From NCBI GenBank assembly GCA_963402885.1, contig OY727093.1, forward strand, positions 11,977,501 through 12,041,500: a stretch of DNA of 64,000 nucleotides. Direction: 5' to 3'. Source of the DNA: Antedon bifida (lineage: Eukaryota; Echinodermata; Crinoidea; Comatulida; Antedonidae). How positions within the stretch are numbered: the stretch's first letter is position 1; every line of letters begins with the position of its first letter. The notes below the pieces were generated by a model that saw only the letters and a program-made list of their open reading frames with translations, searched no databases and had not been told where the DNA came from. Shown piece after piece: positions 31,212 to 64,000 of this stretch. Made by a program: the position numbers and the translations under genes.

Positions 31212-31271
31212 CTGAATAATAGTTTGAGGAGTTTAAAAATGTTCAGTTGAGTTGATTTCCAATTTTATTTT

Positions 31272-37462: not shown

Positions 37463-40400
37463 ATGGCTTCCAACCAATATTCTGCGAGTAACCACAGGAA
37501 CTTGAAGTCAAAGAGTATGTCCAATATACATGCAGATCATCATGGCAATGGCTCACCTCAACTGATGTCGTCATCTGTAAGTGATGTACGAGAAGCTCAA
37601 GAGCATGGCCAGAATTATCAAAAAGAAAAAGGTGTAGTATGATGATTATTGATTTTTTACTGTAACAAATAAAAGTATTAGAAATACTGAATTTTAGAAT
37701 AGAAAGACGTACACTAAACAAAGTCATAAACAAAACAATTAATGAGGAAAAAAGGAAAGTTGTAATATGGAAAATGTGGTTGGGTATGTGGGTGGTAATG
37801 TAACACCCAACATAATTGCTTAGCAACTCAAAGCTTTCATCCAGCTTATTTTTTTAATTGGGAGCTTTAGATTTGTGGTGAACTAGCAGCTAGGTCATGT
37901 TAATTAGTAGCTAGGTCATTTATTTAAAATGCGTGTATTGAAAATGTGCTCCCTCCCGCAATTCCTCTACACAGTTTTTGCATAATATGCAGAGGTCATA
38001 GGTCATCACAAATTGGAAAAAAACCAACACGAAAAAAAAAACCTATATTTAATTTATCTAAGTTATAAAATCTTGCATTTGTTAGTAGTCTTCATAAAAT
38101 GTTTGTAGCTACATCGATGATTAAAAAGAAGAATAAAGCCCATTCATTTTTGCACTCATGTTGACCCTTTTAGGCTACTGTATCTACCAAGTATTGGCTT
38201 GATATGAAATTGTATACCTTCACACACACCTGTGAATTATATTGAAGGTGTGTTCAAGCATACAGATGGAGTATTGTTATTCTTTCTTGTTGTCTTGTTT
38301 ACATTCTAAAGTTCACACTCTTTATTCAAATACACTTGTGATCTCTGGTATGCTGTTTACCCAATGGGAGCTCATAATGAAACATAATTAGTTAAGACAG
38401 GGAAGGGAATTTCATTCTTCTCTGCTTAAGAATTTAGTTGTTTATTAACCCAATGACACAAATCAAATAATAGAAGATAGACAATTTACAAAGAATCTTT
38501 TTTATTTTATTGATTGAACTGAATTTGATAGGAAATACAGAGTAAAATCCCTCATTATTTAACCATACTGTAAGAACATCTGCATTAAGGGGACAAGTAC
38601 TTTTTGTGGGATGTGGGAGAGGTAGATTTTGGGGAATTCTAAAACTGTTTTAATTATTTATGAAATAAATATATTTAGAATTACAATAACATTGTTTTAT
38701 TGTTTAGTAAACCAACATATCTCTATCTTTCTATAGTTGCTTCTCCTTGGGCTTCTCAAATTGTAGATTTACTAAGAAGACGTATTGTGTATAAATCTGG
38801 TAAGTATCAAATTGAAATAAAAAATAAATTAAAAACAGATTATTCAATTGGTGAAACTTAACCGCTGTGCAATTGTGTTTACTATTCAGTTTATTAACTA
38901 TCTCTACTTAAATTCTAAATCAACATCGTTGGATCCCTACAGTTCAATATGTTTTATTTTGTGTTAAATAGCCAATCCAAGGAATGTTTAAGGTTGATTT
39001 TAATTCATGATTTCATGAACAGTCGTGACCTCCTCCTTTCATTATTGACAATCTATTATTATTTCAAGAATGTAGAAAAGAAAGCAGAGTGCCTTTTGTA
39101 TTCATTAACCTTGCACTAAATAGACCCACTGCTACTCTATTTACTTAAAAGATAATTTACATTGTAAATACAATAGCTCCTCTAGTTTAATTACTCAATA
39201 TGACGAATCTAATATTGTACAAATAATAATATGACTAATGTACAGTTTATGTTGCAAATTTGTCACTTTTATTATTGGACACACCTAAATATACAATCAA
39301 ATGAATATAGTTATATAATACCATATTTTGTTATTATTTGAACATTAACTTTAGTAATTAAGATTATAACAAATTTATATTGAATATTTATGTTACAATA
39401 TCTTGAAACTCTCAAGATTATGCCTACTGAAAACATCTTCTACAGTGACTGTATGTAATTGTCCTATAGGTCCCTTTTCTACTGCAAAAAAAATAACCCA
39501 TTAATAAACATGTGAATAAATTAACCCCAATTTCTTTGGATCAGAAACGGGATAAATTTTCAATAAACAATTAAATGGCAGCCTTAAAATAACGGTTAAA
39601 AAACCCAATTGATTCGGTGTTAAAACGCCATTTACACTTTTAGCCGCAACGCAAAATAAGGGTTATTTGATTGACAGCCGTGTCAACTACAATGCAGTAA
39701 CGTTTGAATTGCCTGCCAGTGCCCATTGCATTTTGGGTACTATTTCAACTTATTTAAACAGTTATTCTGAGCAAAAATTTAGCAGAAATGAAAGTTATAT
39801 TTTTAATCTATTTTGAAATAAACGATTTATTCAGCGCTATGCAGCAGAAATAGACCATGTGTGTTCTTTGCTTCCAGTAAAATACTACAACAATCTTCTT
39901 CATATCAGTACAGTCTTGTGGATTACCTAACTCGTCTTGTTCACATTCAGGTTTTCATGTTTCATTCAATGCAGTATTGCTGTACTAAAATATCCATTAG
40001 GCCTACTCTTTATAATATAATATGTACTTCAAGGTACAGTATATCGTAAGACCATGATTATATATTTATTAATCAACAGGCATATGCTGTTATGACCTTG
40101 AGTAGTGTTTTTTGTCTTTGGTTAACTGGACAAAAATAGTACAATAATATACAAATGATTGCGATTGTTACAAAAATTAATCACCCTGTAAATGTACAGA
40201 ATTAGATCGGACACAGAATTCACTTTTCGCGACCCTTTTCAAATTCTGTGAACCATACTCAAAAGTACGTTGGTATTATCTGTTAATATACCCATTGTTA
40301 TGATTATATGAATTAGAATTATTTATAATAATATTGTATACAATTTGATATTAATATATGATTGCTATTTGTTGGTCAGTCAACTTATTAAGTTAACTGT

Positions 40401-43400
40401 TTAGTAAATTAATTTTAATGTTGCGTGATGTGTCACATTATTTTTTTATGAAAATGATTTATTATTGTTACCCAGGTGGGCAGGATAAGAGAGGAAGATC
40501 ACTTATCTCCATAGACATTCAAAAAGCTGATACACTACATGACATTGCTACCTGTATACTGTACTTAACATCAAACACAAGGTACTGCACTTGATACCAT
40601 TTTGACTGCCTTTTCATTCAGAGACCCTTTAAGGTTACAGTAGTACGCCCACCAAATACCAACATAGATCAATCAACCTACCTATCAATCGCCTACATGT
40701 ATTAAGTACCTAAAGTAATGTAGTAGTAAAATATATTAATATTGCTATTATTATTTTTACTTACTCAGAAATTGACCACTTTGTTATGGTTTATATTTGA
40801 TATGCGTTTGATGGATTTTTTTAGGAAAAGAAGCCATCAGAAACCGTTTGTAATAGTTGCAGATTTCACAGGGTTAGGCTTTCAACAAGTACGCTCCATT
40901 TTAGATATGTTACAGGTAAGTCTACAATGTCTATTTCGTGCCTAGCTTACCCAGATAAACTGAGAGGCAGGAGAACATACAGTATGTATTGCTATTTACA
41001 TTCATGTAAAATGTGAACCTCATGATTTCGGTTTGAAGTTTGGTGAAGCCTTTCAATTTAAATGTTAAATATAATAAACATAACATCAACTATAAATAAA
41101 AGGTCTTCTTTTCCTTAATATGGTGCCTAATGAACAACTCATTCATTCATTATGAAACGATGAGAATATGCAATTAAATCTAAATATTTTCCTGTAATGT
41201 ATTAAACATTAACCTATTAATTTATTTATTGCCTAAGTCGGAAATTGCCATCCATTATTGAATTAATGCAAACATTTTGTATTGGCTTGGCTCTATCTAT
41301 TTTATTGCATTTATCATGAAGTAATCAAATCGCAACTTCCTGTATTACTGTCAATTCAATTATTTATTCAATTTATGAAAATAAGATTAGATAAATAGAA
41401 TAATAGAAAGTACAGAAATAGATAAAACATTCAATTAATTATTACTGAGAACTACTTCTTTTCGAATATAGTTTTTTTACTAGTGATTATCTAATATATC
41501 ATTTGTATTATAGAAATCTTGCCGTCATCAAATTCACACAGCATATCTAGTTGTACCTGGTGCATTTAAGGGGAAAGATGGCGAAAGATGGAAATATAAC
41601 TTCAGTTTTGAGGTAATCTTACACCATTTTATATATTTATATATAGATATACTTGTTTTCGATTCAGTTAAACTTTATTTAATCAATGAGGCCCAGATCA
41701 ACTCATATCTAATATTTTTGTTTTTTTAGACGGTATTATTCCCCACTTTATCCAAGCTTTTTGAAGTGATTGACACACACAATTTAACTGAGGATTTTGG
41801 AGGAACACTTTTGTATAATCATGATGAATGGGTGGAGTTAAGATTGGTAAATAATCTTTGACATTTTTATATGAACTTCAATAAATATTATTGTTGATAT
41901 ATTAGTGCTTTATCAGAAAAATGGACATGTTTTCCACAAATTGAAGTTTCAAAATGCACCTTAATAGGGAAGGTGTAGGTCTTTCATTATTTATTTTATT
42001 GTTTATAATTAGTTATAATTTAATATATTTCTGTGACATTTCAAAGTTTTATGCATGCATGTGTGTGTGTAGCTTTGAAATGCATGTAACATGAAAAAAT
42101 GTGAGGAATTTGCAGCTAACATGATTACTATTGTATGTTCCTTAGGATTATGAACGCTTTTTGAAAGATGCATCTACACTTATCCAACGACTAGACAGGG
42201 TTAATTATGAGGTGAAGAGACAAGATAAAAAGACAATGGAAAAAAAGACAAGAAGTCGTCAAAGATGGCACGATGTTGTCTTTAATCAACCAGGTGCTAC
42301 ATATCAACATGGTACATTTATTTGCAATTAACCCTTGCTTTTTTCAATATATAAATATTGTTTATTTATTTTATTTTATTTCAACCACATCCAACAGCGA
42401 AAAATCGCCAATTACAGGATGCCTTAATTTATTAAATTTAATTTATTTAACTCTTATTAGTTTATCATTAATTACCATAATCTGAGCATTTGACCACCTC
42501 ACCACTCACAAGATATTGTTTGATTAAGATTGTTTACATAAATATATTAAATACTATGACAACAAGTACAATTGGTAGTGAATTATTTCCAAATAAAAAA
42601 TGTTTGTATAATATTTTAGAGCTCTTCTGTATACATTTTAATAAGGCATTGTTACATTTATGTTTTCTTTTTGTTTCTATTGAACCATTTAACTACATTT
42701 TATATTAGCTTTTTCTATATCAGAACAGTACACCATAGCAGGTGCACTTTAGCCAACATCATAAACCGTAGTAAACAAACAGCTTTGGTATGCTTTGCAG
42801 GTACATACATTATACGAAAGCTAAGAAAAGACAGATCAGAGCAGCCCTTGCAGGAAGATGAGACGTTAATGTTGAATGAAGTAGAGGGGATGTTAAATGA
42901 GATACAAGACAAACAGGGTGAATTAAAACATTACCTCTCAGAGGGTAAAAAGGAACATCATGTACCAATTGAAGTTCAGGAACTTGAGAGTGGTATAAAA
43001 CGAGTAAGTTTGGTGTTACATAATAGCAAAATATTCTTGTGTTTGCACTGTCATATAAAGGAAAGTATATATTTTAACAGTGTTCTTTGACTATCTTCTT
43101 ACAAGTAAGGTAACTTCAGAGCATGTTTAGAGATTTATTTTTTTAATTACCATTGCCAGCAATATTAAACATGTTCTGTTCAAATATTGTTCTACTATTC
43201 AGGTAAACTCAATTTAATTCAACTTGTTTGTTTTTTTGTAGGTTGTTGATTGGATCATTGGACCAGGAGAAAAATTACTATCATCTCAATCAACCATTGG
43301 CAACAACCTTCAGTCTGCTGACCAACTTAGGAGAGATCATGAGAAATTAGAGTTGAAATGCACTGTACGTATCTTGAAAATTCCCTATAGAATAAAGCGT

Positions 43401-46400
43401 GGTTCCCACTAGCGACGCAATACAACGTATTGCTGTATTGCATAATCACAAATGGGAACCGACGATGCAACAGTGCTGCAAACATCACAGGTTTGATTTC
43501 ATGCAGACGGGGGCAAACACAATCATTGGAAGGGCATTTTCTTACGTCGCGTAGGTTGCGTTATGTTGTGTCACTAGTGGGAACCAAGCTTTAGGACAAA
43601 CCTATACACAGACCAAATCTTGTATTATCATCCTAAAAGAGAAAGGCAATATTTGCTGAATATGTTTCTTCATTTACAACATTTTTTTATTTTTTTGTGG
43701 TAAAAATAGGAAACATATGCAACATTTGCTGAGCTTCGTTATGTTGCTAACGGTTTGATAAAAAATGGAGGACCTTCAACTGAGAGCGTTGCTACCCAGA
43801 AGGAATATATGGACTCGGTGTGTAGGAGCTTTGCCAGTCGGCTGGAAAAAAGAAGAAATCTACTTATTTGTTCTGTTTGTTTTCATCGTACCTTAGAAAA
43901 TGTATGTTTGTATTTTATTTCAATCACTAATTACATTTGTAATATCAGGATTTGTATTGTATTTATGATGCTAAGCTCTGGACAACAAAATTATATTTGT
44001 CAATACGTTGAATCTTGTATTCTTACACACAGCCTACTTACCATTTTACTTGCCTATATGTATGTACTGCATTGAATCTTGAATATAATTCATATTTTTA
44101 GAATTCAATAAATCCTATTTTATTTTGTTTTTGTTTACAGAGTATGCATACATTGGAAGATTTAATTGAGATGTTCAGAGGTGAAGTAGTTGCTGACAGT
44201 ACAGAAATGGTCAAACGAGTTGTGTCAAATATTGATGATAACTGTCATGCAATTGGTCAGTATTTCTATGTTATATCAGTTATTACATTTTTACTGGAAA
44301 ATCCCAAATATATGTTTATGATCATGCACATTATTCAAATAACTTCATCATCAACATTTTTTGTTTCAGCATTTTCTATTGAACAGACGGAAAGAGAGGG
44401 AGAAAGATTGTTAGAAATGATGAGTAGCCCTGTTAAGAATGCTTTCGGTAAAGATATAACACCAAAGTTCGACAGCCAGAAAAGTCATGTGACCACATCT
44501 ATCCATGAGATGAATAAACAACGCAAACAAGTTAACGAATTGGCAGATTTATGGAAATTAAAGTTACAACAAATTTTACAGCTTCGCACGTGTGAGGAAG
44601 ATTCAGTTCAGGTAGGGCCTAGTAACAGTATAACAAGTCTAGGTGAAAATTCTGGCTACCGTACTAGGATTTGTTTTCAATAGAAAGCATAGTCATAGTT
44701 GAAAAAAGGCATGGCAAGTAGATAGGTTGTGTACGTATCACTTTTTTTTTTCAGGGAATTGTTTGGCTAGAAGAACTGTGTGATGTCGTAACCAGATCTC
44801 ATGCTGATATTGGGAGTACTACCGTTGAAGCAGACCAGCGGAAAAAAAGTCATGCCAGCTTAGAGGCCACTGCAGAGGTAATAATTAAGTTTAAATGGTT
44901 TATTATTTTCTGTAATTATTATCTTCTATAATTTGTTTTCATCTTCTATTTTAGTTATTCTTGGCATGTTCCTTTTCTTGTTAAATAATAGTCTAGTAAA
45001 ATAAAATAAAGAATAATACAATTCATTTCCAATGTGTTTTTCTTTTATATTTTTTCATTTTAGAAAACTTATGACTACAGCAAACAGTTATTAAGTGCAG
45101 GCCTAGCGATTCGTAGATCTCTTGAGTACGATACAGCACCAAATGATTCCCTGGCACATAGGCTTCATCTTGCTTGGAAGAGCTTTGCCAAAGAGAGTGA
45201 GGAACGGGCTTCCAGACTTTCTGTCTCACTTATGTTCAATAACAATGCAGAAATGGTACGTATGTTATTGAGTTTACATTCCGTATGTTAGATACTGTAC
45301 TTTGAAAGGTCTTAATTTTATGAGCATGCATAGATTGATTGTTAGGCTCAATAGCTGCATAGTCGCATATCCCTCATAAAAACAGAATGTTAGTAATAAC
45401 CAAATCAGCAGAGCTCTTACACTTATAATTTTTGTTTAAAATAAATATATTTATTTTCCAGCTTGGTCAAGAAATGGATAAGTTCTCTGCAGTAGTAAGG
45501 GAGAGTTTTAATGATACCAACTTTTCTGAACGGGACTTGCATTATCATAGAAATAGGCAAAGTTCCATACAAAATCGATATGTTGATACAATTGCTATGG
45601 GCAAAGCTTTGTTAGATAGAATAGCCGCTCCATCGTCATCTCCTTACAGGTGAATTTCTTTTTTTGTCTCAATAGTTTATGTACAATTTTGAATATAACT
45701 AAGGAAAGTATTGTATGTTTAGTGTTACTTATAAATACAAAAGCCAACTTATTGAATATACAACACTGCTGTCAAGATCAGTGACCCAATCTCAATTGAG
45801 TTAAATAATAAATAAGCAGAAAACCAAATCAAAACATACTGTTGTTGGTTTTACAAATTTTATATAATTTGTGATAGAGATTCATTGTTTCTGTAGAAGT
45901 CCCTGACAAAAGAATAGATAAAAATTAATGAATTGTCATGTTTTCAGTATTAGTAAAAGTAACTTAAAATTTCATCACAATATATATATATATTGCATTT
46001 GAAAGACAATAAAAAAATTGGCAGTATGTTTAGAGTATGTATATTGTGAGCTAATGTATTGAATGTTGATCTCTTCTAGATTGGTTTCAACGCCAGAACC
46101 AGCAGGTCAGGTTTTTAGTCAAGATGATACCTTAATTAACCAGAAACTGTTAGAATTGAAAATTAAAAAGTTAGAGATGGATTTATTACTATCAAGACCA
46201 GAAGAAGCAGAGAGTATTCTTAGGCATATTAAAGAGTAAGTATTGGCAATGCCATCTCAACATTTTTATCTGATGGTTTGCCGTACTCTGACATAATTGT
46301 ACAGATTTCTCAGTATTAAGACCACTTTTGGAATAAATGTTTAAGTAATACTTTTGGGCAACTCAAACCAGATCACTAGCCCGGCATTCATACCTTTAGG

Positions 46401-49400
46401 TCACCGAGTCTTTGTTTTTTATTATTCAATTTCCGGTAATCTATTAACAAGTTAGGTCGTGTAAATTAATTTTCCGAAATGTACGTGCTTCATCACTCTA
46501 TGCTTTGATCCACTGTTTTGGTTTCTATGTCCAGACGAAGACCAATGACACATCAATGACTAGGTCATAGGTCATCGCAAATGGGAAGCTCCTTTTTAAA
46601 ATCTAAATCCAAATACTGTAGTCCTATTTTTAATAAAAATATTATTTAATTTTGTTTTATATTTGACAGTTTATCTGCATACCAAATATCAGGACCGAAT
46701 GCCAAAGACACTTCTTCTATTCTTGAATCTGACCTTAACAACGTTTCACCAGCATCATGGAAAGATGCTAAAGGAATGGTATCGCCATTCACAAACTCTG
46801 AACCACAACAAGTTGTCCCAGCAACATGGAAAGATGCTCAAGGAATGGTTTCTCCATACACTAAACCCAATCATAGTATAACATCCACATTTCAAGATGG
46901 TCCGGAAAAGGTGTCATCACCTATGTCTGATAACTATGCTAGTTATAATGATTCCATGAAGGGAGAACCTCTTGTACAGGAGCCTATATTTGCCAAGACA
47001 GAAGTTCAGAATACTGCAGCAGCAATGAACAATATTAGATTTGGGGATAGTTCTCCTGAAGAACAGGCTGCAATGAGGATATTAAAAGAGTTTGAAGCTG
47101 AAATAGACGAGGTAAGCTACTTTTATACACATTTTATATATAAAACGTAAGAAATAAACTTGTTTTGATGTTAAATTAACCATTTAAATGAATTGTCTCC
47201 ACAAAACAAACATACTCGACGTCATTTGTGTATATTTACCTCTACTTTTTCAGTAGATAATGCTACAAAATTTAGAGTTTTTAAGAGGTTATGCTTTTAC
47301 TATTAATATTATTATTGAGGGGTCATTCTAGTGACACAGTTAGCATGCTTTGAGTCGGGTTATTTTTTTAATGTGTTGGTTAGGCTATGTTTTACGTTAC
47401 TGCATAAAATATAGCACTCATTACTGTTGCTGAAAAACGGCGGTACTGAAAAAAGGGAAAACTATGTTTCTGTCAAGAATTAATAACCACCATACTTCTT
47501 CTTTACAGTACTAATACAATTTTTATAGTCAAATAAAAAGTAAATTTAGTAGCAATATACAAATTAGTAATTATATTATAATTTATGCATTGGCCGATTT
47601 TTGTGTATACATTATCAAATAAAAGATTGTGAAGTTTATTATTATTTTATACATGTCATTTTAAGTTAAGCTACCTAAAAGTATAATTCTCAATTCTCAA
47701 ATTCACATTTGTGATTTTGCTATTATAAATTAAGTTATTAATAGTTGCTATAAATCAATGATTGTAAAACAATGAGCTGGAAATAACTCCCATGAAGAAA
47801 TGGAATATTCCAAAGGGTCTGACTTCTGTAAAGTAGTAAACAGCTTTAAGCTCATGAATATTAATAAGGATTCATGCAGTTAACCTAATACATACTATAG
47901 AAGGCAGTTCATCAGCCTCCAGAGCTGCTGTTGCCAGTACAATCAGTATACACACATCTTCCGTGTGTAGATTGTTTATGTACGTGTTTATGTCCGTGCT
48001 TGTAATTGTCCAATATGATCGTAAAATTGTAACTTTTGGTGGATTTACGCGATTGTCGGTAACTGTTTGTGAGGGGTAAGGATGGCTGCACCAGGAGGGG
48101 TAACTGCGATCAGTACAGTAGCAGTGCAGTCTGGAGAGGCTCGTATCATCCTAGCGGTTTTGAGAGTAAGTGCTTCTATTCCAGTAACCTAGGGCGCAAG
48201 TCTGGTTTTAAAAGAGGTGGGAAAGGGGTTCTTAGCAGCCAGGGGAATGATTTATATTCAACTTTGAAAAACTTTACCACATAAATTTAAAACAATTTAG
48301 ATAATTCATGTATTATTTGATTGCTTGATTTTGATGCTTTTTTAATATTCAACATAACAATATTGCCAGTTTGCAGTATTTTAAATCACAATATTGAAAC
48401 TTGACTGCTTTGCTTTGAATGAAGATGAGAAGGTAGGGGGATTTTTTCCAGAGTAGGTGAAATGTTTTAAAAACATTAAAGCTTATCTTTACCTAATTTT
48501 AATTAGTTATTTAAAAATAAGTCAAATAGGTCTAATTAGTTCATTAAGTTTTTGTCAGTGATGTCTACATATTTAACACCACTATAGTGTTACACTAGGA
48601 ACTGGCATTTAAAGTGGTATTTAAAGAATGCATGAGATAAAATGTGCTGTGTTAATTTCTATGACCAGAGGGTCAATTCTGTAATTTATCTTATGAGTGT
48701 TAGTTAATTGTTTAATAACACCATGGAGAATTTCTAAATAAGACATATTATTGATACTGAGCATTTAAACTGTTTTAGCCAATTACAATGTCTGATTCAA
48801 TTTTGATTGAATTGTTAATTGAATAGTCATCTGAATTTGACATTTTTATGTTTGCATGACTGATTTTAACAAATGTTATATATTTTTATTTAAATAAAAA
48901 TATACATGCTCTAGTAATTGTTGTTTTATGGTTAATAATAAATTAATGAGGGGCCTGACCCTCACAATTGTCTGTCTTGTTAGAGTAACTTCGTTTTGAG
49001 ATCAGCATAAATATTTAGATTCTTGAGTGTCCAATAGTAGGCACACACAACTTGATAAGGCATCTTGCAGATGGAGATACTTTACACTTGTTATGGGTAG
49101 GGTGTTCATCTTAAAATTCTTTGAATATTAACATTTTTCCAAGTGCCAATATTAAATTCTGTTAAATTTTATATCTATTATTTATAATTTAAGCTTTTCA
49201 CAGTAGTATTTATAAGATGATGAGTTTAAAATAATTGTAACAAACTGTGATTAAACATAATTATCACCCCTGTGGAAAAACATACAGGTATACAAATTAT
49301 TGTAAACAATGAAACATTGAGTATATATTTCTGATTTTCACTAATTGTATTTACCAATTTGCTATCTTTGTTGAAAAAAAAAAACTAGGGCAGTTTTATA

Positions 49401-52400
49401 GATTTTTATTTCATGTTATGATAATTTTGTTATATCTTTTCCAGTAGTGATTTGCGGATTAAATTAATGTTCTTGCGGTTTTTCAGTTGTGGATTTCTCT
49501 AGGATTTAACGCTACTGACAGCCGCACACTTCAGCAATTATACCATGCTGTGAAACTGATATTAGCTATTTATAGGCATGGCTTAGTTGGGTGATTCGAC
49601 CTCTTTGAAAAGGGCAGTTAGGTAGTTAGTAGGTTTGAGTGAAGCTGTATTTACCAATTGTGCCCCCTGACGTCATTGCATTCTTTAATATTGGACACAT
49701 TTCAGAGTATGATCAATCTTCATGGTATGCCAGGGACGTGTTAATGTTTTTTTAATTTTAATATTTTATTAAATTATGATATGAATTACACTAAATAATT
49801 ACTGCACAAATACAATTCTTGTTACTTTGATAGAATTAAAATCAATTTTTTGAGGCATTTTGATTTTTAAGGCATGATGTATATATATATATATATTTTT
49901 AATGTTATAAAATTGTAGACATTTTTGACAAAAAACAATTATCAATTTAATGCAAAATGCATATTAATATACCACAAGTATGATAAATTAAAAATAATAA
50001 AAGATAAGTAGGTCAGAGACACAGACAATAATCATGGTCTTAAAGATACAGTGATACTAAACTAAACTGTCAATATTGAAAAATGTAAAATTTTCCAGAC
50101 ATCCATTAGCATTTAAGAATATATATGGACAGTTTTGGGTCAGGATATTTTTACATATTAATGTAAAGGACATTTTAAAAATTAAATAATAAAATAAATT
50201 GTTTAATTTTAAAAGGATAATTATAATGTGTCACCGCATCTTTAAAGTATCATTAATGTTGTGATGACAAGCATTGACAGCTGTAATAGCCAATTGTAGG
50301 TTACAGTAAAAACATCTGTTAAAACTTAAAAGATTTTCATCGTTAAACCGTTTAATAGGGATATGAAACTACACATGGCTGTGAGAAAAAGAAATGTAGG
50401 CCTACAGAAGGTTGAAAATAAATTATTACAGCATATTAATTTTGTAATAATATTAATAATTATACTGTACCCATGTGGCTACTGGTTATACAGACAAAAT
50501 TATGGAAATATTAAATCATCCCAAAGTTACAGATTATTAAAATATCCAAAGAATGCATTGGCCACCTGGCATTGAATGTTGATCATTACGTCCTTGATAA
50601 TCATACTGAAGACATAGAAATCTCATCCATAATTTAATAAAAGTAAAATTAAAGCGACTAGACTTTGCACAAATAAAAAAAAACCTCTTTTATGCTCTAT
50701 TTAATCATTTTATTACTGAGATTATTTCAATCTTGATACAGTACTGTATTTAATCATCTACTATGCTTGTTTCACATCAACATAAAATGTAAAAACATAA
50801 CAAAACCTGGAATTATCATCAGCCTTGATTTAATAACTATGTACCCTAAAGTGAATCTAACCAATTTACTTATTGCCTCAAACATTTCTAAACATACTGC
50901 AATTTATCTGTTGTGTTGTGGAATGCCTACCATAAATTAACTTACTTTGTGATTGGGTAGACTAAATTTGATTGGCTAATAGTAATGTTCTCAGGGTTAT
51001 GTTTACTAATGTTATTGTATAAATAGATTCAACTACTGTAGGATATTTTAAACCCTTTATTTATTTATAGTCTATTATCATATTGTTGTTGTACACATTT
51101 AATTAATATATTAATGATATCTAGAAGTTATTTAAATTAGTCCCAGCATAGTTCCACGATCCTATTATTAATCCCAAGACATCCTCAAGTACTGAGAGTA
51201 GATATATATATATTTTTTTTCATATTTCAGTCAACAGAATGGGTACGAGTAAAAGTTCACGAAATGACCCCTCGCATGACGGACGTTGGACAAAATAAGG
51301 AAGAAGCACTACATCTCAAAGCACAGCACAATAAATTAGTAGAACAAATAGCAGTAAGTTAACATATGTTTTAATATATTAATGTTTTAATCTCATTTTG
51401 CTGCCTCCTAAGTAAGTGGTGTCAGCCATTCAGTTAACTTTCTTTCACACTGTACAGTCTTAAAAGACTTTTAACACCATTTGAAGCCTCTGTGTGACTA
51501 TGTACTATTTCAACCATACCAACTTGCCATACCATAGCAGGCTCTCTTCATTAAGGGTTCAAGTATTACAATAGTTCTCTTAAATGGCGAATAAAAGTTT
51601 CAGAAGACCTTTTCCATGGCAAATAAATACTAGTAAATTTGTTTGTGGTATGGCCTATGTTTCCAATCCGTCATTTAAAAATTCCCAGCCATAATTTACA
51701 TGGTGTTCAATAAACCTAATTTTATTACCAGTAATGCATAATCTCACATTGAAATGATGATTACTTAATTAAATACCGATTTTTAATTTAAATATATAAT
51801 ATTGTACAGTTTAAGTCATGGGTATAAAGTAAGAGTAGTTTTCTACTTTATTATAGTTCCTATGAAACAAGTAATAATACAAAAGTTCCTTTTAGATGAA
51901 TTATCACCATGTTCATATTTCTTGACCTTTAACATCTGATATGTCTGATTTACTTTTTTGTTTCGGTTAGTTACGATTCTCATGGCGTTTGGCTTCATCA
52001 AATTTCTTCATATATTTTAGTACTTTCATTGTTACATTGGTAGAAATTGTAGAGGAAATATGCAATAACATTGTTGCTTAAAAACAATAGTTAATAATTT
52101 AACTTATAAATTGAGCTATACATTTGTTTTTAATACTCATATTTGTTTGTGTTTTGTCCCTTAATAAGAGAAAGATTTTTAAAAGGGCTAAACTGTGACG
52201 TGCGAACAAGTTATTCTATTCAGCATAACTACATGCTTTAAATTGAATAAAATTTAGTATCAGTGTCTAACCTTAAATTTGTGACTAAATGTAACAAATG
52301 CAGGTACAAAAGATGGATATATAAATACAGTATTATTGTTATTAACAAAAAAACTGTTAGAGAACATAAAATTTCCAAATCACCTGGGTTGTATTTCAAA

Positions 52401-55400
52401 TTGCATTGAATCATTTTATTCCAATGATTAGAGATACATGTGTTTTTAAACTGCACATACACAAACTTTCATGTCAGGTGAGACTGCCTGATAAATTGAA
52501 AACATGAACCCACTTGGAAAATGCTTTTTAAACTGCAATTTCCAGACAAGAAGACGACATTAGATTCACCTCTTTGCAACGGTTTTTTGGATTTTTTTAT
52601 TATATTAAACTGACTTGTGGATCTCCTACTATATGAAAAATATATGTCTGAATTAATACCGTACATTTATTATAGTATTTAGGAAATTGAAGCCTGTAAT
52701 AACCTATAACTATCACAATGTTTCCATGATACTATATTATTAAAGGCCAGATGCAGGAAAACAATTTCTATTGATCATACATTCTAATTATCGATTTATA
52801 ATTTCCCCTATGTTTTATAATTTTGGGACTTTTATTGTGCTACACGATTTTGTTAAAAATAAGCATTTTCTTATCAGTTGGGGATAGTTGAAATTACACA
52901 GTAAAATCCCTATTCTCTTACACAAATGTTGTAAATAGAGAGGCATTTTTAAAAATTAACTTATAACCAAAGTTTTTTTCATCGTAATTTCTGTTACACA
53001 TATTTGTTTTACGTACATTTAACCAGATATCATATTTAAAATGATACATGTTTCTTTACTTTCAGTCACGGCAGCAACAGATTAATGCTTTACTAACACA
53101 AGGAGATAATTTAGTATCAACTCAGCAATTTTATAACGATGTGTATGAAGCCATGGCCCAGTCTCTTGGCGAGGCATGGCAAGACCTTAACAAACAACTT
53201 CAAGACAGACGCAACTTACTGGATGAGGCTATTAACTTCTACCAGCTCTCTGAGGATGTAAGTAATTTTTTTTGTGGAGAAATTATTTTATAAATTTGTA
53301 GTACTATTACTACTACTATACTATCGATGTAACTGTAACCATTAAAGAATTAACATTATTTTTAATTTCTAGTTTTCTGATAAATTAAAACGGGCATCAG
53401 ATGAATCACGAAGCCAGGAGATGCCAGTTAATGTTGTTGATTCTGAGTCAAGGTTAAAAAACCATCACGATTTAAAGAAAGGTAATGTTTACAACTATTA
53501 ATTTGCAAATATACAGCAATAACGAACATTGCATTCTTGTTTATTCTAAACATAGTTCATAAAGTATATGTTATTGTGTTGATTTTCAGGATTAATAAAT
53601 AATGAAATAATGTCAAAATTACTTTCTCTTAAGAAGCTTTGTTTATTATGCTATTGAGAAATGAACTATACCCATTCATGTTTGTGCCAAGGGTTTTCTG
53701 CAATCCCATATGACCTATAATAACCTAGAAGCCAATTAAATCTAATAGGAACTGAAATTGTGTGTGTATTGGGAGTAGATGCATTGTCATATCTTTAGCA
53801 AAGGCTTTGAACCAGTACAATTGATTTCAATGACATTTAAAAATCATCATGTTTTTCTTGTTGTGTCTACCTACATTGTCTCTATACTATTGATAACATT
53901 TATAATAACATCAGTAATGCATTGTAACTGATTCAAGACAATGTATAGCTTTGGTGATTTAATTGTGCAAATAAAAGGTTTGCACTCAAATATTACAACA
54001 CTTTATGTGTTTGAATAATCACAATTTTGAAACTTAACTTTTAGATATTTTAGCAACATCAATGAAAGCAATGAATCTTGGCCGAACTTTGATACAGAAG
54101 CTTAATAACATGACACCAGTTGACAGTCCAGTCGAAGACAGGCACGCCACCACCACGGCGTGTTATGCAATAGAGCGTACACTGGAATCATTACAGGACA
54201 GGAGACGAGGACTAGAAGATGCTTGGAATAAGCGCCGGCTAGATCTAGAACAAAATATAGTCTTATGTAACCTAAACCAAGAGGTTGATGAGGTAGGCAA
54301 ACTAACAAACAAACACACCTTGCTTTTATAAAATTATATTCTGTTGTAATATAGTTGTTTAGTTTAATATATGTTATTACATCAACATTTTAGAAGTTTT
54401 TTGTTTGTTTAATGGTTGGTTTACTGGTTTGTATACTAAGCAATCATTTATAAAATATTAATTAAAGTATGTTGCATTTAAACGTAATTATCCGAGCAAT
54501 AAATATGAAATATAAAAACCAACCCCCAAATTTGATGTATATGCCCACCTGCATAAGCTTTACACAATAATAGAGATTGGCTTTAACCAAAGTAAGAAAC
54601 CTTAAAAATCATAGAAATTCCTCATAGGAATATAATAGGTTTTGACATATTGATACTTTTTAAAGAATACGTTTTTCGAGTTTTCATGTTACTTTTCACT
54701 ATGTTGAAATAAACTAAATTACCTTGTTACACAATAAAACAGCTATGTAGTTTGACCCACAATAAATCATCAATCCAGATGTTAGTAAGCCATTTGCAAA
54801 CACATAAATTTGTTTTCAGAAGATTTAGTAGTTTAGACTGAAAACAACTGCATGAAAATATATGTGAAGTGTGTGTTGAATATGATATAAATAGTGTTAT
54901 TAATTAAATGTTAATTCTAATGAAAAAAAGAAGAAATATTTTCAGTTTCTAAATTTTCTAATTGTTCATGAAAAAAAAAATGAAAACAAATTTTATATAG
55001 GTTTTTATGCTTTAAATATTTCTATGTAGAAACATTAAAGAAGTTTTAGTATTTAACTTATGCAACCCTTATGAAATACTTTATTATAATAGACCATATC
55101 TATATTTTTTTATAGGTTTCTGATTGGTTTAAGTCCTACGGAGAAGTGCATTTTGATGTTGGAGACAGTATTGAAGCAACCCGAACACGACTTAAGGACC
55201 ATGAGCGCTTGCAAGAGTCGTTCAAGGTTTGTAATTGACAAATTCACAAGGAAAGATAAAATTAAAATCATATTAGTATTAAGGAAAAACCAATTATCAG
55301 TTTTTATTGTGTGTATAATAAGCTACAGGGAATGTTAGATCATTAAATGCCAGACATAAAAATAGACCAACAAAATGCCTGGGGTAGGCCATGATATCAA

Positions 55401-58400
55401 CAACCATATTTAGTGCGACGGTGAATTTCATGGTAAATCTATATTAACATTTTTGTTTATTTTGAGTTTGTCTGTTGGCATTTCGAAAAACGAGATGCTT
55501 TTGGACGCGAGATGCTTATTGACGAGATACCGTTTGACGTCATTGATATATATTTTATTATTGTACTCCCTCTGATGGAGTTATTGCAGAAAACCACTTG
55601 ATTTATGTTTGCGCTAATTATTTTTTGAACTTCTATTGAGTTATCCGTAAGAGTGCACTGCCCACCAATTGTTTCTTGTATCTGGTTGCCAAAAAACTAA
55701 ATAAACAAAATATATTCTTAATATGACATCAACTCCAATATTTAGAGTGGTCTAAATTATAAATAAAATAGTAAAAATTTTTTTTTTAATGTAAATATTG
55801 CTATATATACACTATTCAAATTAATCTTATATAATTATATTTCATGAAATTTTTAAAATTATTTTTTAGGAGGTTCAGACAAAAGTATCAAACATGCATG
55901 TTGAGGCAGTGAAAGTATCGCCCTCAACACAACACAAACTACAACTACTCTTGACCCAGACCAGAGGTGTGAATACCTTGTGTGATGACTTTGCCGAGAA
56001 ACTTAATAATTGGCATCAAATACTTACATGTACTTTGGACTTTATGGTTCATACTCAGATGGTAAGATTATATTAGTGTTGTTAAGTGCTCCCTATATTT
56101 CAATGTAAAATACAGCCTGTTCTCCTACCACCCTTTGGCTGGCCCAACATTTCTGAGTTTCTATAGAATCTGGTTGTCACAATCAGCAACATTTTCAGTT
56201 TTCATTAATTCTGTCCACTTTTATTGTATTAAATTCTGGACACAATTTTTTTTTAGTTATATAAAATAAATTGTTTTGTAATAAAAATAAACGTAAACAA
56301 CATACTGTATATTTTGCAGGCTATGGAAACACTCTACAAGGTGGAGGTAGAAATACAAAATATTAACCAACAAGATCGACCAAAATACTTGAGTACTATA
56401 CACCATGCTATTGATCCAGTCGTCCAAGAGGGCCAGGTGCTTTTGAGCATGCTCACATATCCTACACCAGGGGCTTCTCATATTCAAATAACCATTGACA
56501 AGCTACAGGTAAAACTTATAATATAATACAACCATTTTTGTCCAAGATTTTATCCAAGTTCTATGGTTATTTCAGCCCTTAATGTATTTCCAAGAGTAAC
56601 CAATATTAAGTCTGTTAGTTAATTAGACTCATGCTTTCTTTTGAAAAGAAAAAATACAAGACTCTTACTTATTTATATTTTTAGATGGAAGGGGACCGCC
56701 TTGATAATCAGTGCCTTGATGATCGTGTCCATGAGAATAGTGTAACAGCAGACTTCGAAGAGCGATATTCCGTCCTTGTCCGCTGGTTAAGGAATGTGGG
56801 TGATAACTACTTAGCCACTTACAATGATCCTGGTGACCAACTCACCACAGCGATGGACTTCCTTGAAGGTCATGAGCAGTTAGATGATGATATGCGGGTA
56901 AGTTCAGGCCCTGTTTGTCCTATCAGGCTAGGAGCGATTGCACATCTCAAAGAGGTGAAAATAGCATTAATTAATGTCCGCATTTTGGGCAAACAAGTTT
57001 AGTTTTACTAGCGAGGTTCCCATTTCTAGTATCAGCATCAATATTATTATGGTATGTAACTTCGGTTCTTCATTAGTTTCCTTCTCACTGCTTATTTTTT
57101 CTATTTGCCATAGTAAACATATCTTATATATTTCTACTCCCATCTGCTGTTATTATTATTATTTACTAATACAAGTACCACCGCTTGTAAATACCAGACT
57201 AGACTTGTTTTATTTACCCCTATTGTTAATCATACTATTGATTTATTTCTGCAGGAGAAGACGAAGGAAGTGGAGAAAGTTTTAAGTGCTACTGCTGATA
57301 TAGTACGCTCTGGTGCTCCGGACTCATCCTCTGTTCAAGAACGAGCTGATAAACTGCGCCAACAATGGAGCAGAATCACAATCTCAGTGGAAAACCGAAT
57401 ACGTATCGCCTTGATACTTGTGAAATTTCATAAACTTACTAAAGAGGTAAGATAAGAGTAAAAGCTTATAGTTTGATATCAAACTATTTTTTAAATGAGC
57501 AAGAGACTGTGATAACGTATTATAATAGAAATAACTATATAATATGAGTTTCAAAGTAACAATAAAATTTACCAATTAGAAATATATCAAAACATATGAT
57601 TTCAGATTATTTATTGACTTCTTGAATGTGCAATGTCCCTAAGAACCAGGAAAATTGCCTGTATCAGAAGCAGCTATTAGATTTCTTACTGTATTATCAC
57701 TATCCTTTTTTAAAATAATCTATTAAAGTTGGTGAATGCAATGGAAAACCTTGAAACACATCTTAAAATAGCAATAAACAGCGAAACACCACCACAGAAG
57801 ACCTCAAATTTGGAGCTTCAGGAACGATGGAACCATGTAATTGAGTTGTATGTCCAGACAGAAAGCAAAGGAAAGAACTATCTTTCTGAAGCTAACTTTG
57901 TAAGTTCATATTTATATTATATGTAAATGACATTCTCTTTCTAGTAAATTCATAGTAAGGCGAGAGTGTAACGTTATTCCATAACTAATTGAATTATTCA
58001 CCTACAGCTCTGTCTACGCTATCAAACTTTATGTGGAAAAAAAATCTGATGTGCCCATATATGAACACAATGATGTCATATCATTACCATATTTAGGCAT
58101 ATCACTACTAAGGCACATCACACTTTTTTGTAAAAATAGTTTGATAGTGTAGACTGTTTTAAACTGTGCAAACTGTATATTCACCTCAACTTCACTTGCC
58201 TAGCATTACTCTAAAATTTTGAAACACATGATGTACAGCAAACCTCACTATACTAAATTAATCTTGTTATAAACTTTTTTGTGTAGGTAAGAGATGATCC
58301 TTTAATAGTGCTGCAACCATCAATAAGCACAGTGGAACTTAAACTACAGACGTATGAAGAACATAAAAATAAATTGACAGACATGTTTGATTCATGGCAA

Positions 58401-60695
58401 TTAAACCAAACATTAAGTAAAGACTTCGCCAGCCAGTGGAAACAGTTTGTTGCTGATGCACGACAGGTATGTACAGGCAATAATTTGTAATTCTATAGAC
58501 ATTAAGAGTTATTAAAATAGATAGATTTACTGCATTGAATATATACAATCGATTTATAATTTGACAGACAATTAGATGGGTGGAGAGGGTAGAGGCAGAT
58601 TTCTTTCCCATGTCTGGTGAGCTTGATGGTGCTTTACATGATACAGACTCACTCCAAACAAAATTTGATGAAATACAACTAACTATGCAAGTAAGTGTTG
58701 CTTTTGCATATACTGTAACTAACATGAGCCTTTAATGGGTTTATAATTATTTTTCATATACTGTTTGAAGGTTTGCATGGCGAAGTCAAATGTTGATATA
58801 AAGTTTGCGGTACACCACGTATATTAGTACTGAGAAGAACTGTAGAGTTTCTCCTCAACAGTTCTTTTCAGAAATAATATACGTGGTGTACTGCAAACTT
58901 TATATCAACAATTACTTTTCAATTCATTCAATTTGGTTTTAACACAACTTATAAATTACCAATATTTAAATAAAAAACAATAAAGAAATTAAATTTTCCT
59001 TACAGAGAATTAATGCAGAGATTGAACTGCGGTTAAAAACAGCTGAAATGCTAGCCTTAAAGGGAGACACCAAGGGTGAGAAGGATGCTATCGTTGAAGA
59101 GCTGTTAGCAGTGCATGAGGGACTCCAGGGACGTATCATTGAACTTCAAATCTTACTGACTGTCTCAAAATCATTTTTTGATAATATGAGAAAGGTAAAT
59201 AAAATAGAACCCACCTTTGGGACACCCCTTATTAAGGTGATACTTTCCGAGTGTTAAATAAACAAGAAGCAATATATATTTTAATGCTATGGCTAACCAC
59301 TATTCTGTGTGATGGTCCCAAAGATATCCCTTTAAAAGTGTTCTACTTTTTTTTTATTTGGCATTCTATTTAATACAGTAGCATTGTAATTACATTTTTA
59401 AGGTGTTGACTTTGATGAATACAACTGAGCGATCATTTAAAACAGCTGAGCTACCCAGTAATCAAACACAAAAATCGGTGCTAGTCAAGCGACATGAGAA
59501 ATGTCGTGAAGAGATTATGACACTTTATGATTCAACAGCGGCCAGAGCAAATGAAGTTATTCAAAGACTTCAACAGTCTGTAAGTAAAAATAGTGTAAAT
59601 GATTTTAATTTTGCTCTTGTTTATTGAAACACATTCTTATTAGTATTACTCCAGTTTAAAATGCATAGAGGGCAGAGTATTTTTTTTAATGTAAATAAAT
59701 CATACTATTGTTATTTTATATAACTGAAATCAGTAAAGCATTAATGATTGACAGTATATGACTTTTCTGCATGTCGTACAATGGTCTAACCGATTCCATT
59801 GCTATATTTTACTAATTGAATTCTAAGTTAAGAAAATTGATTGTTTTTAGGAGAAGCATTCAGGTTCTATTCAAGAGGTAGAAGATGCAATGAAAGGTGT
59901 TGATGATTGCAAGTTACAGTGGTTGGTAAAATGGCGGGAGCATAGAGATAGATTAGAGTCTAGTCATCAGGAAACACAGATCAGCAAAGAAAAAATACAG
60001 GTAAATAAATCAACAAGCAAAGTACCTACTAAGTTCATCTCTCTCTAGATTCACAAGATCAACTCTCCCAACCTCATCAAACTGGCCTATGACAATTTCC
60101 ATTTTGAATATTAGAGTATAAAGCTCTGTCTACACTATCAAACTTAGGCGTCACACTTGCAATATGATCGTTTGTTGCCTACATTCCTTGTTGTTTTATC
60201 ATGCTAATTACTTCCTCATTTACATACAACCTGTCCTATTGGTATATAAGTACTCTTGGCGTTGTTTTCTGTTCTGATGATGAGAATAGTTTCTCGAAAC
60301 ATGTGGAGGCATTTTAGGCAGTTTGCCTATTTATCAAATGCCTCACAATCGTTATTTTAAATCTTTAAATCTTTATGTGACAAAAAAATGTGATGTGCTC
60401 ATATGTGGACATGATGATCTCATATCACTACCATATTTTAGCATATCACTACAATATTTGGGCACATCACACTTTTTTTTTAAACTAGACAGTGTAGACA
60501 GAGCATCAATGCAATGCATACTATTATGATCTATTATATATACATCCTTTTGGTTCAATTATTAAATCTTAGTTGATGCGTGACCTTGGTATGGTTGAGC
60601 TAGAGTTAAAAGCCATTGAAAATGATTATGGAGACTCAATTCATTCAGTGACACTGATTGTTGAAAAGTGTGAGGATATACTTGTCAATCTTGAG
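37463..60695 (+). CDS. SESTD1-like SEC14 and spectrin-repeat protein, extended rod (3' end outside window)
   Basis: 33 exons join in frame to 1817 residues with no stop: 37463-37631, 38737-38799, 40476-40581, 40825-40915, 41514-41612, 41730-41846, 42146-42293, 42801-43003, 43242-43364, 43710-43901, 44141-44255, 44370-44611, 44755-44877, 45064-45255, 45462-45649, 46080-46235, 46670-47111, 51231-51353, 53066-53257, 53373-53481, 54045-54292, 55116-55226, 55870-56061, 56320-56508, 56685-56897, 57255-57446, 57729-57899, 58287-58466, 58568-58690, 59006-59194, 59403-59579, 59851-60000, 60573-60695. The SEC14 domain (about 57-235) has LTEDFGGTLLYNHDEW, nearer SESTD1 (LTEDFGGSLTYDHMDW) than Trio. Later matches are WIIGPGEKLL, FGKDIT and LRTCEEDS. 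SESTD1 binds phospholipids and TRPC channels and acts in planar polarity. Vertebrate SESTD1 is 696 residues; the homologous part here ends near residue 775, and the rod continues. ATG 37463 has a good context. Confidence 0.85.
43395..43591. repeat. MITE with terminal inverted repeats and TA ends
   Basis: Left AAGCGTGGTTCCCACTAGCG pairs with the inverse of the right end (...CACTAGTGGGAACCAAGCTT). Arms are about 33 bp with a few mismatches, each bordered by TA (43393-43394 and 43592-43593). This is the layout of a Tc1/mariner-type MITE, in an intron of the SESTD1-like gene. Confidence 0.75.
47112..51230. other. Large intron of SESTD1-like gene
   Basis: This 4.1-kb AT-rich intron holds the candidate alternative first exon at 48082-48165. 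A short TA run lies near 49879. I see no other exon or recognisable element. Confidence 0.55.
48082..48165 (+). CDS. Candidate alternative first exon of the SESTD1-like gene
   Basis: ATG 48082 (G at +4) opens 28 codons starting MAAPGGVTAISTVAV and ends at donor GTAAGT (48166) in phase 0. That is the phase needed to enter the exon at 51231. The upstream 100-200 bp are less AT-rich than the surrounding intron, as expected of a 5' UTR. The product would be a rod-only isoform lacking SEC14. It is inferred from sequence alone. Confidence 0.45.
52743..53042. repeat. Dispersed repeat, copy 2
   Basis: It is collinear with 31272-31790 but shorter in its middle. Its end lies only 23 bp before the exon that starts at 53066, so it supplies the DNA just upstream of that acceptor tract. 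Confidence 0.7.
58007..58154. repeat. MITE family A, short copy
   Basis: GCTCTGTCTACGCTATCAAA at the left is mirrored by AGTTTGATAGTGTAGAC at the right. The interior shares CATATCA-TACCATATTT and GGCACATCACAC with the copy at 60123-60504. Confidence 0.7.
58791..58910. repeat. 120-bp long hairpin in intron
   Basis: The arm 58791-58843 (TGTTGATATAAAGTTTGC, then GTACACCACGTATATTA...AAGAACTGT) is the near-exact inverse of 58858-58910. There are about five mismatches over 53 bp and a loop of about 14 nt. It is a foldback MITE or a hairpin transcript. Confidence 0.85.
60123..60504. repeat. MITE family A, copy with internal insertion
   Basis: Ends GCTCTGTCTACACTATCAAA and AGACAGTGTAGACAGAGC are inverted. 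Compared with the copy at 58007, about 225 bp (roughly 60147-60370) interrupts it after CAAACTT. Homology resumes at CTTTATGTGA. The insert contains TGATGATGAGAATAG-TTCTCGAAACA. Confidence 0.7.
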
Positions 60696-61815: not shown

Positions 61816-64000
61816 CGTTTTATACATTTTATTGTAATTAATAAAATTAATAAAATTACTTCTCCTGAAAAGACAACAACCACTACATCAACTGAGCGCT
61901 ATACAACACTTATGACAGTGCTAAATAAGGCAGTTGAAGAAGTCCCGAAGAAAACAAGAAACCAAAATGCTCATCCCTGGGATGGTGATGAAAGACTACA
62001 ACAGCTTATAAAAGAAAGAAAGAATATTAACAAAAGCACAGTTACCTACAAAGAAGAGGAGATCAAGGCTATGCAGAAAGCAATTAAGATAAGGGTTAAG
62101 GAACTACGGAATGAATATTTGTATGAAGAAGCAAGCAAGTTAAATGAAGCCCACCAAAATAGAAAAATATTTGATTTATGGAGAAAAGCTAAGGAGCACG
62201 GTGATGTTATAAGAAAAGCACCAAAGCCTATAAAATGTCCTGGATTACGTGAACACTTTAAAGATCACTTTAATCCAGACCAATCTAGCCTTAAAATCCC
62301 AGATGAAATTAGCACACCTCCAGAATATATTATCAACCTGAGACAACCAGAATTTGAGATAGACAATGAACCTCCGTCCAAGAAAGAAATTATTGATGCA
62401 ATCGGACATCTAAAAGGTCGCAAAGCTACCCTAGATGTCGCTTCTGAAATGTTGCAAGTCGCCACAGAGAACCCAGTATTCGTCGACCATGTACATAGAC
62501 TGTTTGAGGAAATTTGGAGAACGAAAGAAGTACCAAGTGATTGGGGACTGTCCAAATTAACAACCATTTGGAAAAAAAAAGGCAGTCCACTTGATCCATC
62601 AATGTATAGAGGAATATCGATTGGGTCTACATTTTCAAAGATACTTATGGTTATCATTCTTTCACGTTTTTCCATCTTTTATGAAAGTCAACTTCTACGC
62701 ACACAGTTTGGATTCAGGTCCAACAGAGGGTGCAATGATGCTATATATGTAATCAAGCAGATCCAGGAAATTGCGTATCGCTCAAATCGCAAACTCTATA
62801 CATGCTTCATTGATTTAACAGCAGCATTCGACCATGTGAATCGTAATCTTCTTTTCCTAAGCGTTCGTAATAGGTTTCACTTAAACCAGTCTACTACTAT
62901 GATTGACATTATACAATCACTGTACAGCTCAACGAAAGCATACCTTGCTGACGACGATCCGAGTGATGATAAGTTCGAAACATCTTCTGGGGTGCGACAG
63001 GGTGGTATTGAGAGTACCAGCATGTTTAACCAATATTTTGATTACGTTATTAGAGTGTTCAAACAACGCTGTAAAGATGCTAGTTTGGATGGCCTAATGA
63101 TACAATACCTAATTCCTATTGAAGCTACAAATCGTGCTCAAAGACGTAAAGCACCATCAAGGGGCATCTATGACGACTTTGAAAGTGGCTATGCTGATGA
63201 CTTTGCTGTAAGCTCCTGGTCACAAGAAGAACTGCAAACCATTGTGAACATCTTGAATAAAGTTTGTCTGGAATTTGGTCTAAGAATTAGTGCCCCCAAA
63301 ACAGAAACCATTATATGGAACTGGAAAGAGGAAGTTGAAGAATACCCAAGATGCATCATACAAATTGGCGGCGTACACATTAACAACGTAACACACTTTA
63401 GATACCTTGGTGTATGGGCTACCTACAATGATGTTCATATTGGAGATCAAGAAGTAAAATACAGAATCAATTCAGCCAAAGGAGCATTTGCAGAGAATAG
63501 AGCATTGCTTACCAACAGAACGATCCACTTACAAACAAGAATGATGTTTCTTAATGGTCTAGTTAGGAGTAGACTCACCTATGGTTGCCATGCTTGGAGG
63601 GCAACAGGAAGTGAAATGTCCAAACTTAGCACAACATACAAAACCTTCCTAAGAAGAATGCTAGTGAATGGCTTTCAAAGAGTCTGCCCACCAAACCATG
63701 TAGACATATCCTCAGATGAAGAAACAGATGAAAACTATATAGACTGGCGTTACGTTATTGATAATGACGATCTCTACAAAATTACTGGCTGTCAACCGCT
63801 AGAAGAATATGTCTACAAGCAACAATTCAACTGGATCGGACATGTAATTAGAAAAGAAAATGAAGATCCTACAAAAATTCTTACTTTTCACACAACCCAA
63901 AGTAAACGAAGAGGTCGGAAGATACCATCAATACTTGATAGAGTTGTACAACAAAGTCAACTTACTAGATGCAACTTCATTAGAGCCTGCTTCAACAGAA
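61816..64000 (+). mobile_element. Non-LTR (LINE) retrotransposon, apparently 5'-truncated, running off the window
   Basis: The reverse-transcriptase frame opens after a stop at 61813 and stays open to the end. No AP-endonuclease domain precedes it, which suggests a 5'-truncated copy. It lies in the sense direction of the host gene. The 3' end and target duplication are outside the window. Confidence 0.8.
61912..64000 (+). CDS. Reverse transcriptase of a non-LTR retrotransposon (3' end outside window)
   Basis: About 696 codons are open from ATG 61912. Upstream codons to 61816 are also open, but the true N-terminus is probably lost. An N-terminal basic coiled region precedes the RT fold. Motif A is CFIDLTAAFDHV (D301), motif B SGVRQGGIESTSMFNQYFD, and motif C GYADDF (427-430), so the catalytic aspartates are present. 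The thumb and C-terminal part follow, with FNWIGHVIRKENEDP and KRRGRK, a basic W-x-G-H-V-x-R end seen in many LINE proteins. The clade is undetermined. The intact frame suggests recent insertion. Confidence 0.88.
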   Translation, partial: MTVLNKAVEEVPKKTRNQNAHPWDGDERLQQLIKERKNINKSTVTYKEEEIKAMQKAIKIRVKELRNEYLYEEASKLNEAHQNRKIFDLWRKAKEHGDVIRKAPKPIKCPGLREHFKDHFNPDQSSLKIPDEISTPPEYIINLRQPEFEIDNEPPSKKEIIDAIGHLKGRKATLDVASEMLQVATENPVFVDHVHRLFEEIWRTKEVPSDWGLSKLTTIWKKKGSPLDPSMYRGISIGSTFSKILMVIILSRFSIFYESQLLRTQFGFRSNRGCNDAIYVIKQIQEIAYRSNRKLYTCFIDLTAAFDHVNRNLLFLSVRNRFHLNQSTTMIDIIQSLYSSTKAYLADDDPSDDKFETSSGVRQGGIESTSMFNQYFDYVIRVFKQRCKDASLDGLMIQYLIPIEATNRAQRRKAPSRGIYDDFESGYADDFAVSSWSQEELQTIVNILNKVCLEFGLRISAPKTETIIWNWKEEVEEYPRCIIQIGGVHINNVTHFRYLGVWATYNDVHIGDQEVKYRINSAKGAFAENRALLTNRTIHLQTRMMFLNGLVRSRLTYGCHAWRATGSEMSKLSTTYKTFLRRMLVNGFQRVCPPNHVDISSDEETDENYIDWRYVIDNDDLYKITGCQPLEEYVYKQQFNWIGHVIRKENEDPTKILTFHTTQSKRRGRKIPSILDRVVQQSQLTRCNFIRACFNR

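Follow-up and report, generated by a model that had tools for sequence, protein, structure and literature searches.

An ancestral gene named connectitin, in which SESTD1, CCDC141 and titin are encoded together, was proposed as a hypothetical gene in a 2025 paper (PMC12198301). Connectitin is reported there as one gene for cnidarians and placozoans, with three genes in its place in bilaterians. The human order is given as SESTD1-CCDC141-TTN, with SESTD1 and CCDC141 lying just 5' of titin as separate neighbours; human SESTD1 comprises a SEC14 domain and three repeats, and CCDC141 comprises six repeats and an Ig domain. The Drosophila genes CG15822 and zormin are likewise described as separate, and transcripts spanning CCDC141 and titin are mentioned. 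The species used there for synteny include amphioxus, ascidian and fly, and sea urchin and acorn worm appear in the tree legends (PMC12198301). A joined SESTD1-CCDC141 frame or an array running from TRIO to obscurin was not found reported in the open-licence literature; database gene models may exist.

The analysed window was a stretch of 64,000 nucleotides of Antedon bifida contig OY727093.1 (hereafter C1), and positions are those of the window unless a contig is named. In the mitochondrial COX1 and ND1 genes of this genome, motifs judged conserved by eye have AAA at Asn and AGA at Ser positions, as in the genetic code that echinoderms and flatworms share; an echinoderm is likely on this basis, and a T-rich COX1 strand suggests a crinoid. 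The exons were chained by hand from the sites of the original prediction and then checked for GT..AG borders, phase and stop codons. The results showed a forward-strand frame from 37463 to 60695 that comprises 33 coding exons with GT..AG borders and consistent phases, and encodes 1814 residues with no stop, as expected from the original prediction that a SESTD1-like protein continues in frame past about residue 775 into an additional rod. The putative first coding exon (37463-37631, +) has a weak donor (gtgtag) and is the least certain of the chain. The Sec14/CRAL-TRIO part of SESTD1 (38737-41846, +) consists of exons 38737-38799, 40476-40581, 40825-40915, 41514-41612 and 41730-41846, and is followed by the SESTD1 spectrin repeats (42146-46235, +), an open frame of ten exons (42146-42293, 42801-43003, 43242-43364, 43710-43901, 44141-44255, 44370-44611, 44755-44877, 45064-45255, 45462-45649 and 46080-46235). 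A Pro/Ser-rich linker exon of about 148 residues (46670-47111, +) joins the SESTD1 and CCDC141 parts. Beyond it lies the window part of a CCDC141-like spectrin rod (51231-60695, +), for which the predicted count of 16 exons was recovered: 51231-51353, 53066-53257, 53373-53481, 54054-54292, 55116-55226, 55870-56061, 56320-56508, 56685-56897, 57255-57446, 57729-57899, 58287-58466, 58568-58690, 59006-59194, 59403-59579, 59851-60000 and 60573-60695. Residues 775, 923 and 1814 correspond to positions 46235, 47111 and 60695, respectively.

The three exons around the linker, which had been singled out beforehand, have GT..AG borders and share one consistent frame. The donor of exon 46080-46235 is in phase 2, matching the phase-2 start of the linker exon, and the phase-0 end of the linker exon matches the start of exon 51231-51353 across an intron of 4.1 kb (47111-51231). 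The linker exon is in phase with both neighbours and is strongly coding, with the second highest coding log-odds in the chain according to a home-made gene finder; no domain was assigned to it. No start codon was found at the 5' edge of exon 51231-51353 before its repeat, and therefore an upstream coding exon is needed. When the donor at 46235 is left unspliced, an in-frame TAA follows at once, as in GA|GTAAGT phase-2 donors, which would yield a SESTD1-sized product; short isoforms may be made alongside the long form. When the whole genome was searched with residues 56-1814, every one of the 32 matches (E<=1e-3) fell at this locus, so that no second SESTD1 or CCDC141 was found at that threshold.

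The gene finder combined coding potential with a splice model, and its training set comprised long open frames of the genome together with some exons of this gene. At three intron penalties it recovered the 17 exons between 46670 and 60695 with two flaws: exon 55870-56061 was dropped at the strictest penalty, and seven tiny extra exons were placed in the 47111-51231 intron at the loosest. The SESTD1 part was poorly found, with most Sec14 exons missed and exons 42801-43003, 43710-43901, 45462-45649 and 46080-46235 recovered at best partially. Codon bias is weak there, and these exons rest on protein similarity and the open frame, given the weakness of the model in this part. With a combined start and stop penalty of -18 or -10 nats the model held one gene; at -4 nats it ended at 47256 and restarted at 48419 while keeping the 46235-46670 join, and at 0 the gene broke into 20 pieces. 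The split at -4 nats means that sequence statistics alone do not force the join across the 47111-51231 intron. An almost unpenalised run gave 606 exons, mostly spurious, and was discarded in favour of higher penalties. Pieces of a retrotransposon ORF were taken as exons in one penalised run, and that stretch was masked in later runs.

A single SESTD1-CCDC141 transcript is the reading we consider probable, and the frame's order of parts, which matches the published human SESTD1-CCDC141-TTN neighbours and single cnidarian gene (PMC12198301), counts in its favour. The chief alternative, which we regard as unlikely, is that two separate neighbouring genes lie here as in vertebrates, so that the linker belongs to one of them and the continuity on its other side is accidental. 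That arrangement is the reported vertebrate state (PMC12198301), and the model's break at the 4-nat gene boundary and the TAA directly past the 46235 donor would suit it. AATAAA motifs also occur nearby, although they are found at 2.11 per kb throughout and were set aside as uninformative about gene ends. Against two genes, however, stand the strongly coding linker exon, in phase on both sides, and the need of exon 51231-51353 for a coding exon upstream.

The protein domains agree with the composite structure. Pfam assigned CRAL_TRIO_2 to residues 98-208 (E 2.2e-6; 28.5 bits against a cut-off of 23), Spectrin_SESTD1 (PF24915) to 427-535 (E 1.9e-17), Spectrin to six stretches (E 1.1e-31; the best at 914-1018), DUF7799 to 1024-1130, Spectrin_7 to 1439-1539 and I-set to 2106-2196. 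The Sec14 part matched the Kalirin Sec14 structure 7ur2 (E 7.1e-19), Kalirin being the Sec14 structure among the matches listed (60 of 101). The SESTD1 rod and the second rod aligned with 20% identity over 432 columns (E 3.5e-9, a value without a shuffled control). A phase-0 exon pair of 123 and 192 bp, whose 105 codons make up one spectrin repeat, has four exact occurrences, two in the SESTD1 part and two in the CCDC141 part.

Provisional, non-curated human SESTD1 and CCDC141 sequences were also compared with the frame. Residues 3-652 of SESTD1 aligned to 62-722 (E 2e-67), residues 37-1081 of CCDC141 aligned as one colinear piece to 926-1939 (E 6e-21), and the Ig of CCDC141 aligned to 2106-2197 (E 6e-6). 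Among 200 shuffled BLAST controls, the best E was 0.35 for CCDC141 and 0.43 for SESTD1, and among the phmmer controls one shuffle reached E 0.012 with SESTD1. The provisional SESTD1 scored 160 bits with the Spectrin_SESTD1 profile and thus appears true to record; the provisional CCDC141 reached 18.3 bits with DUF7799 at the corresponding place, below the cut-off of 27. The idea that any generic spectrin rod would give such matches was dismissed, since a 3586-residue spectrin ORF from the same genome gave no CCDC141 match at E<=10 and only E 3.0 with SESTD1. This ORF (C9:2057388-2068145, -) is a spectrin-repeat gene in a single uninterrupted frame, which is unusual beside genes of many short exons. 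A genome-wide Spectrin search placed none of its 80 matches on C1 (150 of 173 candidates scored); single exons of divergent repeats score low, and this result was therefore not counted against the rod. The extra rod is likely to be CCDC141, a strong lead that draws partly on the non-curated human sequence and on architecture and neighbourhood.

The frame does not end at 60695, where the original prediction had closed it: that position is the splice donor of the last exon inside the window. In window numbering run on past 64000 (68044 = C1:12045544), the frame continues on the forward strand through exons 64415-64606, 65340-65523, 66111-66526, 67243-67378 and 67823-68044. With this downstream DNA included, the chain comprises 38 exons and 2197 residues with no stop. 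The five downstream exons contribute further rod, a linker and an I-set Ig, and end at C1:12045544. The intron after 60695 harbours a retrotransposon reverse-transcriptase ORF in the same orientation as the host gene (61816-64000, continuing to 64005, +; RVT_1 E 4e-26).

The exon ending at 68044 leaves in phase 1. The next Ig, the first of the titin Ig exons (from C1:12054612), is encoded by exons 77112-77268 and 77515-77693 (I-set E 3e-20) and enters in phase 1. The first titin Ig exon is therefore in phase with the last CCDC141-part exon, on the same strand and across a gap of about 9 kb, and no in-frame start codon was found ahead of the Ig in exon 77112-77268. These exons had been given by the gene finder as 77112-77239 and 77642-77693; redrawing them by eye gave a whole Ig and an open frame. 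If 68044 is joined to 77112 and the chain is carried on into 77963-78250, an open frame of 2405 residues results, counted from exon 1. At -4 nats the gene finder still assigned the exons from 64463 onward and the titin Igs to one gene, linking them through three tiny exons (70126-70139, 70257-70283 and 73825-73828). These three recurred between 68044 and 77112 in other runs and at most of the start and stop penalties, and were rejected for their low scores. Reading on through an unspliced 68044 donor meets a stop after 19 codons, and the protein may therefore also end at a CCDC141-like size. A transcript running on from SESTD1-CCDC141 into titin may exist, but we regard it as rather doubtful.

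On C1 (+), the first I-set match downstream of the window is the closing Ig of the frame, 3.8 kb beyond the window's end, and further matches extend over at least C1:12055477-12327443 (+), with 150 of 1170 candidates scored. An FN3 cluster at C1:12147089-12192201 (+; 150 of 526 candidates scored) is followed by a kinase at C1:12192866-12193970 (+) and by Igs to C1:12202606. The best structure match of this kinase was twitchin (306 bits), and the human titin kinase scored 255 bits, below DAPK entries. As judged from the sequence, the series of an Ig array, an FN3-Ig array, a kinase and further Igs corresponds to a titin-type array. Two further kinases (C1:12227146-12229864 and 12248069-12249874, +), whose best structure match was MLCK family member 4, lie between the titin array and a RhoGEF part; two adjacent MYLK genes have been reported in amphioxus (PMC12198301). 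Beyond these kinases are two SH3 stretches, a RhoGEF (C1:12283029-12285503), a PH piece, Igs and two last kinases (about C1:12312950-12314097 and 12327972-12333896, +), both nearest to twitchin with obscurin far lower. The obscurin label follows from the order SH3-RhoGEF-PH-kinase-kinase alone, and the kinase labels denote the nearest solved structures of hand-joined and partly incomplete queries, which cannot prove orthology. Another array of Ig and FN3 domains, which includes a kinase (343782-345332), was seen at C9:341554-388029 (-), perhaps a twitchin- or SPEG-like gene. WNT matches were located on C1 (3.76, 14.1 and 25.5 Mb) as well as on C7, C11 and C16; connectin and WNT are reported on one chromosome in amphioxus and ascidian (PMC12198301).

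Upstream of the frame, the window contains what is, by its domain sequence, the C-terminus of TRIO/KALRN (582-12677, +), with a Kalirin-type SH3 (about 2865-3036; Pfam SH3_KALRN E 4.1e-23), an Ig (9044-9328; I-set 1.6e-16), an FN3 (about 9481-9885; FN3 profile match) and a Ser/Thr kinase (10111-12316; Pkinase 1.4e-41) in order on the forward strand. The end of a possible PH domain on its 5' side scored 23.1 bits, below the cut-off of 27.7, and RhoGEF matches further upstream (C1:11976194 and 11924711, +), outside the window, are candidate parts of the same gene. Between TRIO and SESTD1, the gene finder placed a gene on the opposite strand with an SLX9 domain (ribosome biogenesis; 27583-34899, -; Pfam SLX9 E 7.1e-25), which carries a long Asn-Asn-Glu-Ser repeat tract. 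The TRIO, SESTD1-CCDC141, titin, MLCK-type and obscurin-order units are thus all arranged head to tail on the forward strand and span about 409 kb, an array in which C1:12059784-12221500 was read at small loci only and other genes may intervene, also upstream of the window.

A second alternative agrees that SESTD1 and CCDC141 form one transcript and differs in history: the bilaterian ancestor would have had two separate genes, and these would have re-fused in this lineage. The separate human and Drosophila (CG15822, zormin) genes favour it, whereas a single gene is reported for cnidarians and placozoans (PMC12198301), and the exon pattern common to both rods, together with the adjacent TRIO and titin, points to an old arrangement; we judge such a re-fusion to be quite unlikely. 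An artefact of gene model or assembly, in which spectrin exons from genes unrelated to one another had been linked fortuitously, is extremely improbable: nothing positive was seen for it beyond the weak codon bias that leaves much of the SESTD1 part to similarity, and against it stand a single 33-Mb contig, 38 exons without a stop, the colinear domain order and the confinement of all genome matches to this locus.

The original prediction had posed an ancestral giant against a lineage-specific fusion, which was the right question; its proposal that the protein was cut short in vertebrates is probably wrong, as the rod has likely been kept as CCDC141. The titin, MLCK-type and obscurin-order domains downstream and TRIO/KALRN upstream, all on the same strand, did not figure in the original prediction. 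The position of CCDC141 beside SESTD1, 5' of titin in humans (PMC12198301), indicates that SESTD1 was probably not cut short, and a split into two neighbours is a more likely vertebrate history than loss of the rod. Under the preferred reading, one gene would encode SESTD1 and CCDC141 in succession, with a flexible linker connecting the Sec14 domain and spectrin repeats of the former to the spectrin rod and terminal Ig of the latter. This gene probably represents the surviving 5' portion of a Trio-derived ancestral connectitin; titin, its 3' portion, would still lie directly downstream on the same strand, and in vertebrates the components would have become separate neighbouring genes in unchanged order. 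The Sec14 domain may bind membrane phospholipid, the long spectrin rod could provide both spacing and a docking surface, and the terminal Ig, either by itself or through splicing to titin, might tie this membrane-side module to the contractile cytoskeleton.

The published inference of a hypothetical ancestral gene drew on separate bilaterian neighbours and single cnidarian genes (PMC12198301). The Antedon locus shows the SESTD1-CCDC141 join in one frame in a bilaterian, with titin adjoining and in phase. A bilaterian connectitin in one transcription unit (Sec14-SESTD1-CCDC141-titin, perhaps including the MLCK-type and obscurin-order units, next to the parental TRIO) is conceivable, but we give it less than even credence. 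If true, a membrane-lipid module and a sarcomere spring could be made as one protein. The locus also hints at a functional tie between the lipid-binding module and titin. It bears directly on the origin of titin, and brings within direct test both an origin of the titin family by tandem duplication and the sequence in which its members split.

Compared with known systems, the Antedon frame shares with SESTD1 a Sec14 domain followed by a Spectrin_SESTD1 repeat, with about 650 residues aligning to the non-curated human sequence; the human form ends after about three repeats, whereas the frame here continues to residue 2197, and it is therefore SESTD1-containing and not SESTD1-sized, unless short isoforms occur. 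With CCDC141 it shares a spectrin rod and one Ig 5' of titin, as described for the human gene (PMC12198301), and colinearity with the non-curated human sequence, but apparently no separate CCDC141 gene exists here, the rod being joined to SESTD1. A Kalirin-like Sec14 links it to TRIO/KALRN, which itself lies upstream on the same strand, whereas the SESTD1-CCDC141 frame lacks a RhoGEF. The three-part order is the same as in Drosophila CG15822-zormin-sls, which are reported as separate genes (PMC12198301). Connectitin of cnidarians and placozoans, as described in the same paper, shares with this locus a SEC14 domain, many spectrin repeats, many Igs, a RhoGEF, PH, SH3 and several kinases on one strand, and in Antedon the SEC14, spectrin repeats, Igs, RhoGEF-PH-SH3 and kinases lie in series over about 319 kb, in one gene or several. 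The locus differs from that description in the five kinases seen downstream of SESTD1, of which three precede the RhoGEF, two of these three being MLCK-like, and in belonging to a bilaterian rather than a cnidarian or placozoan. The Antedon locus is close to the proposed ancestral connectitin, with TRIO still adjoining.
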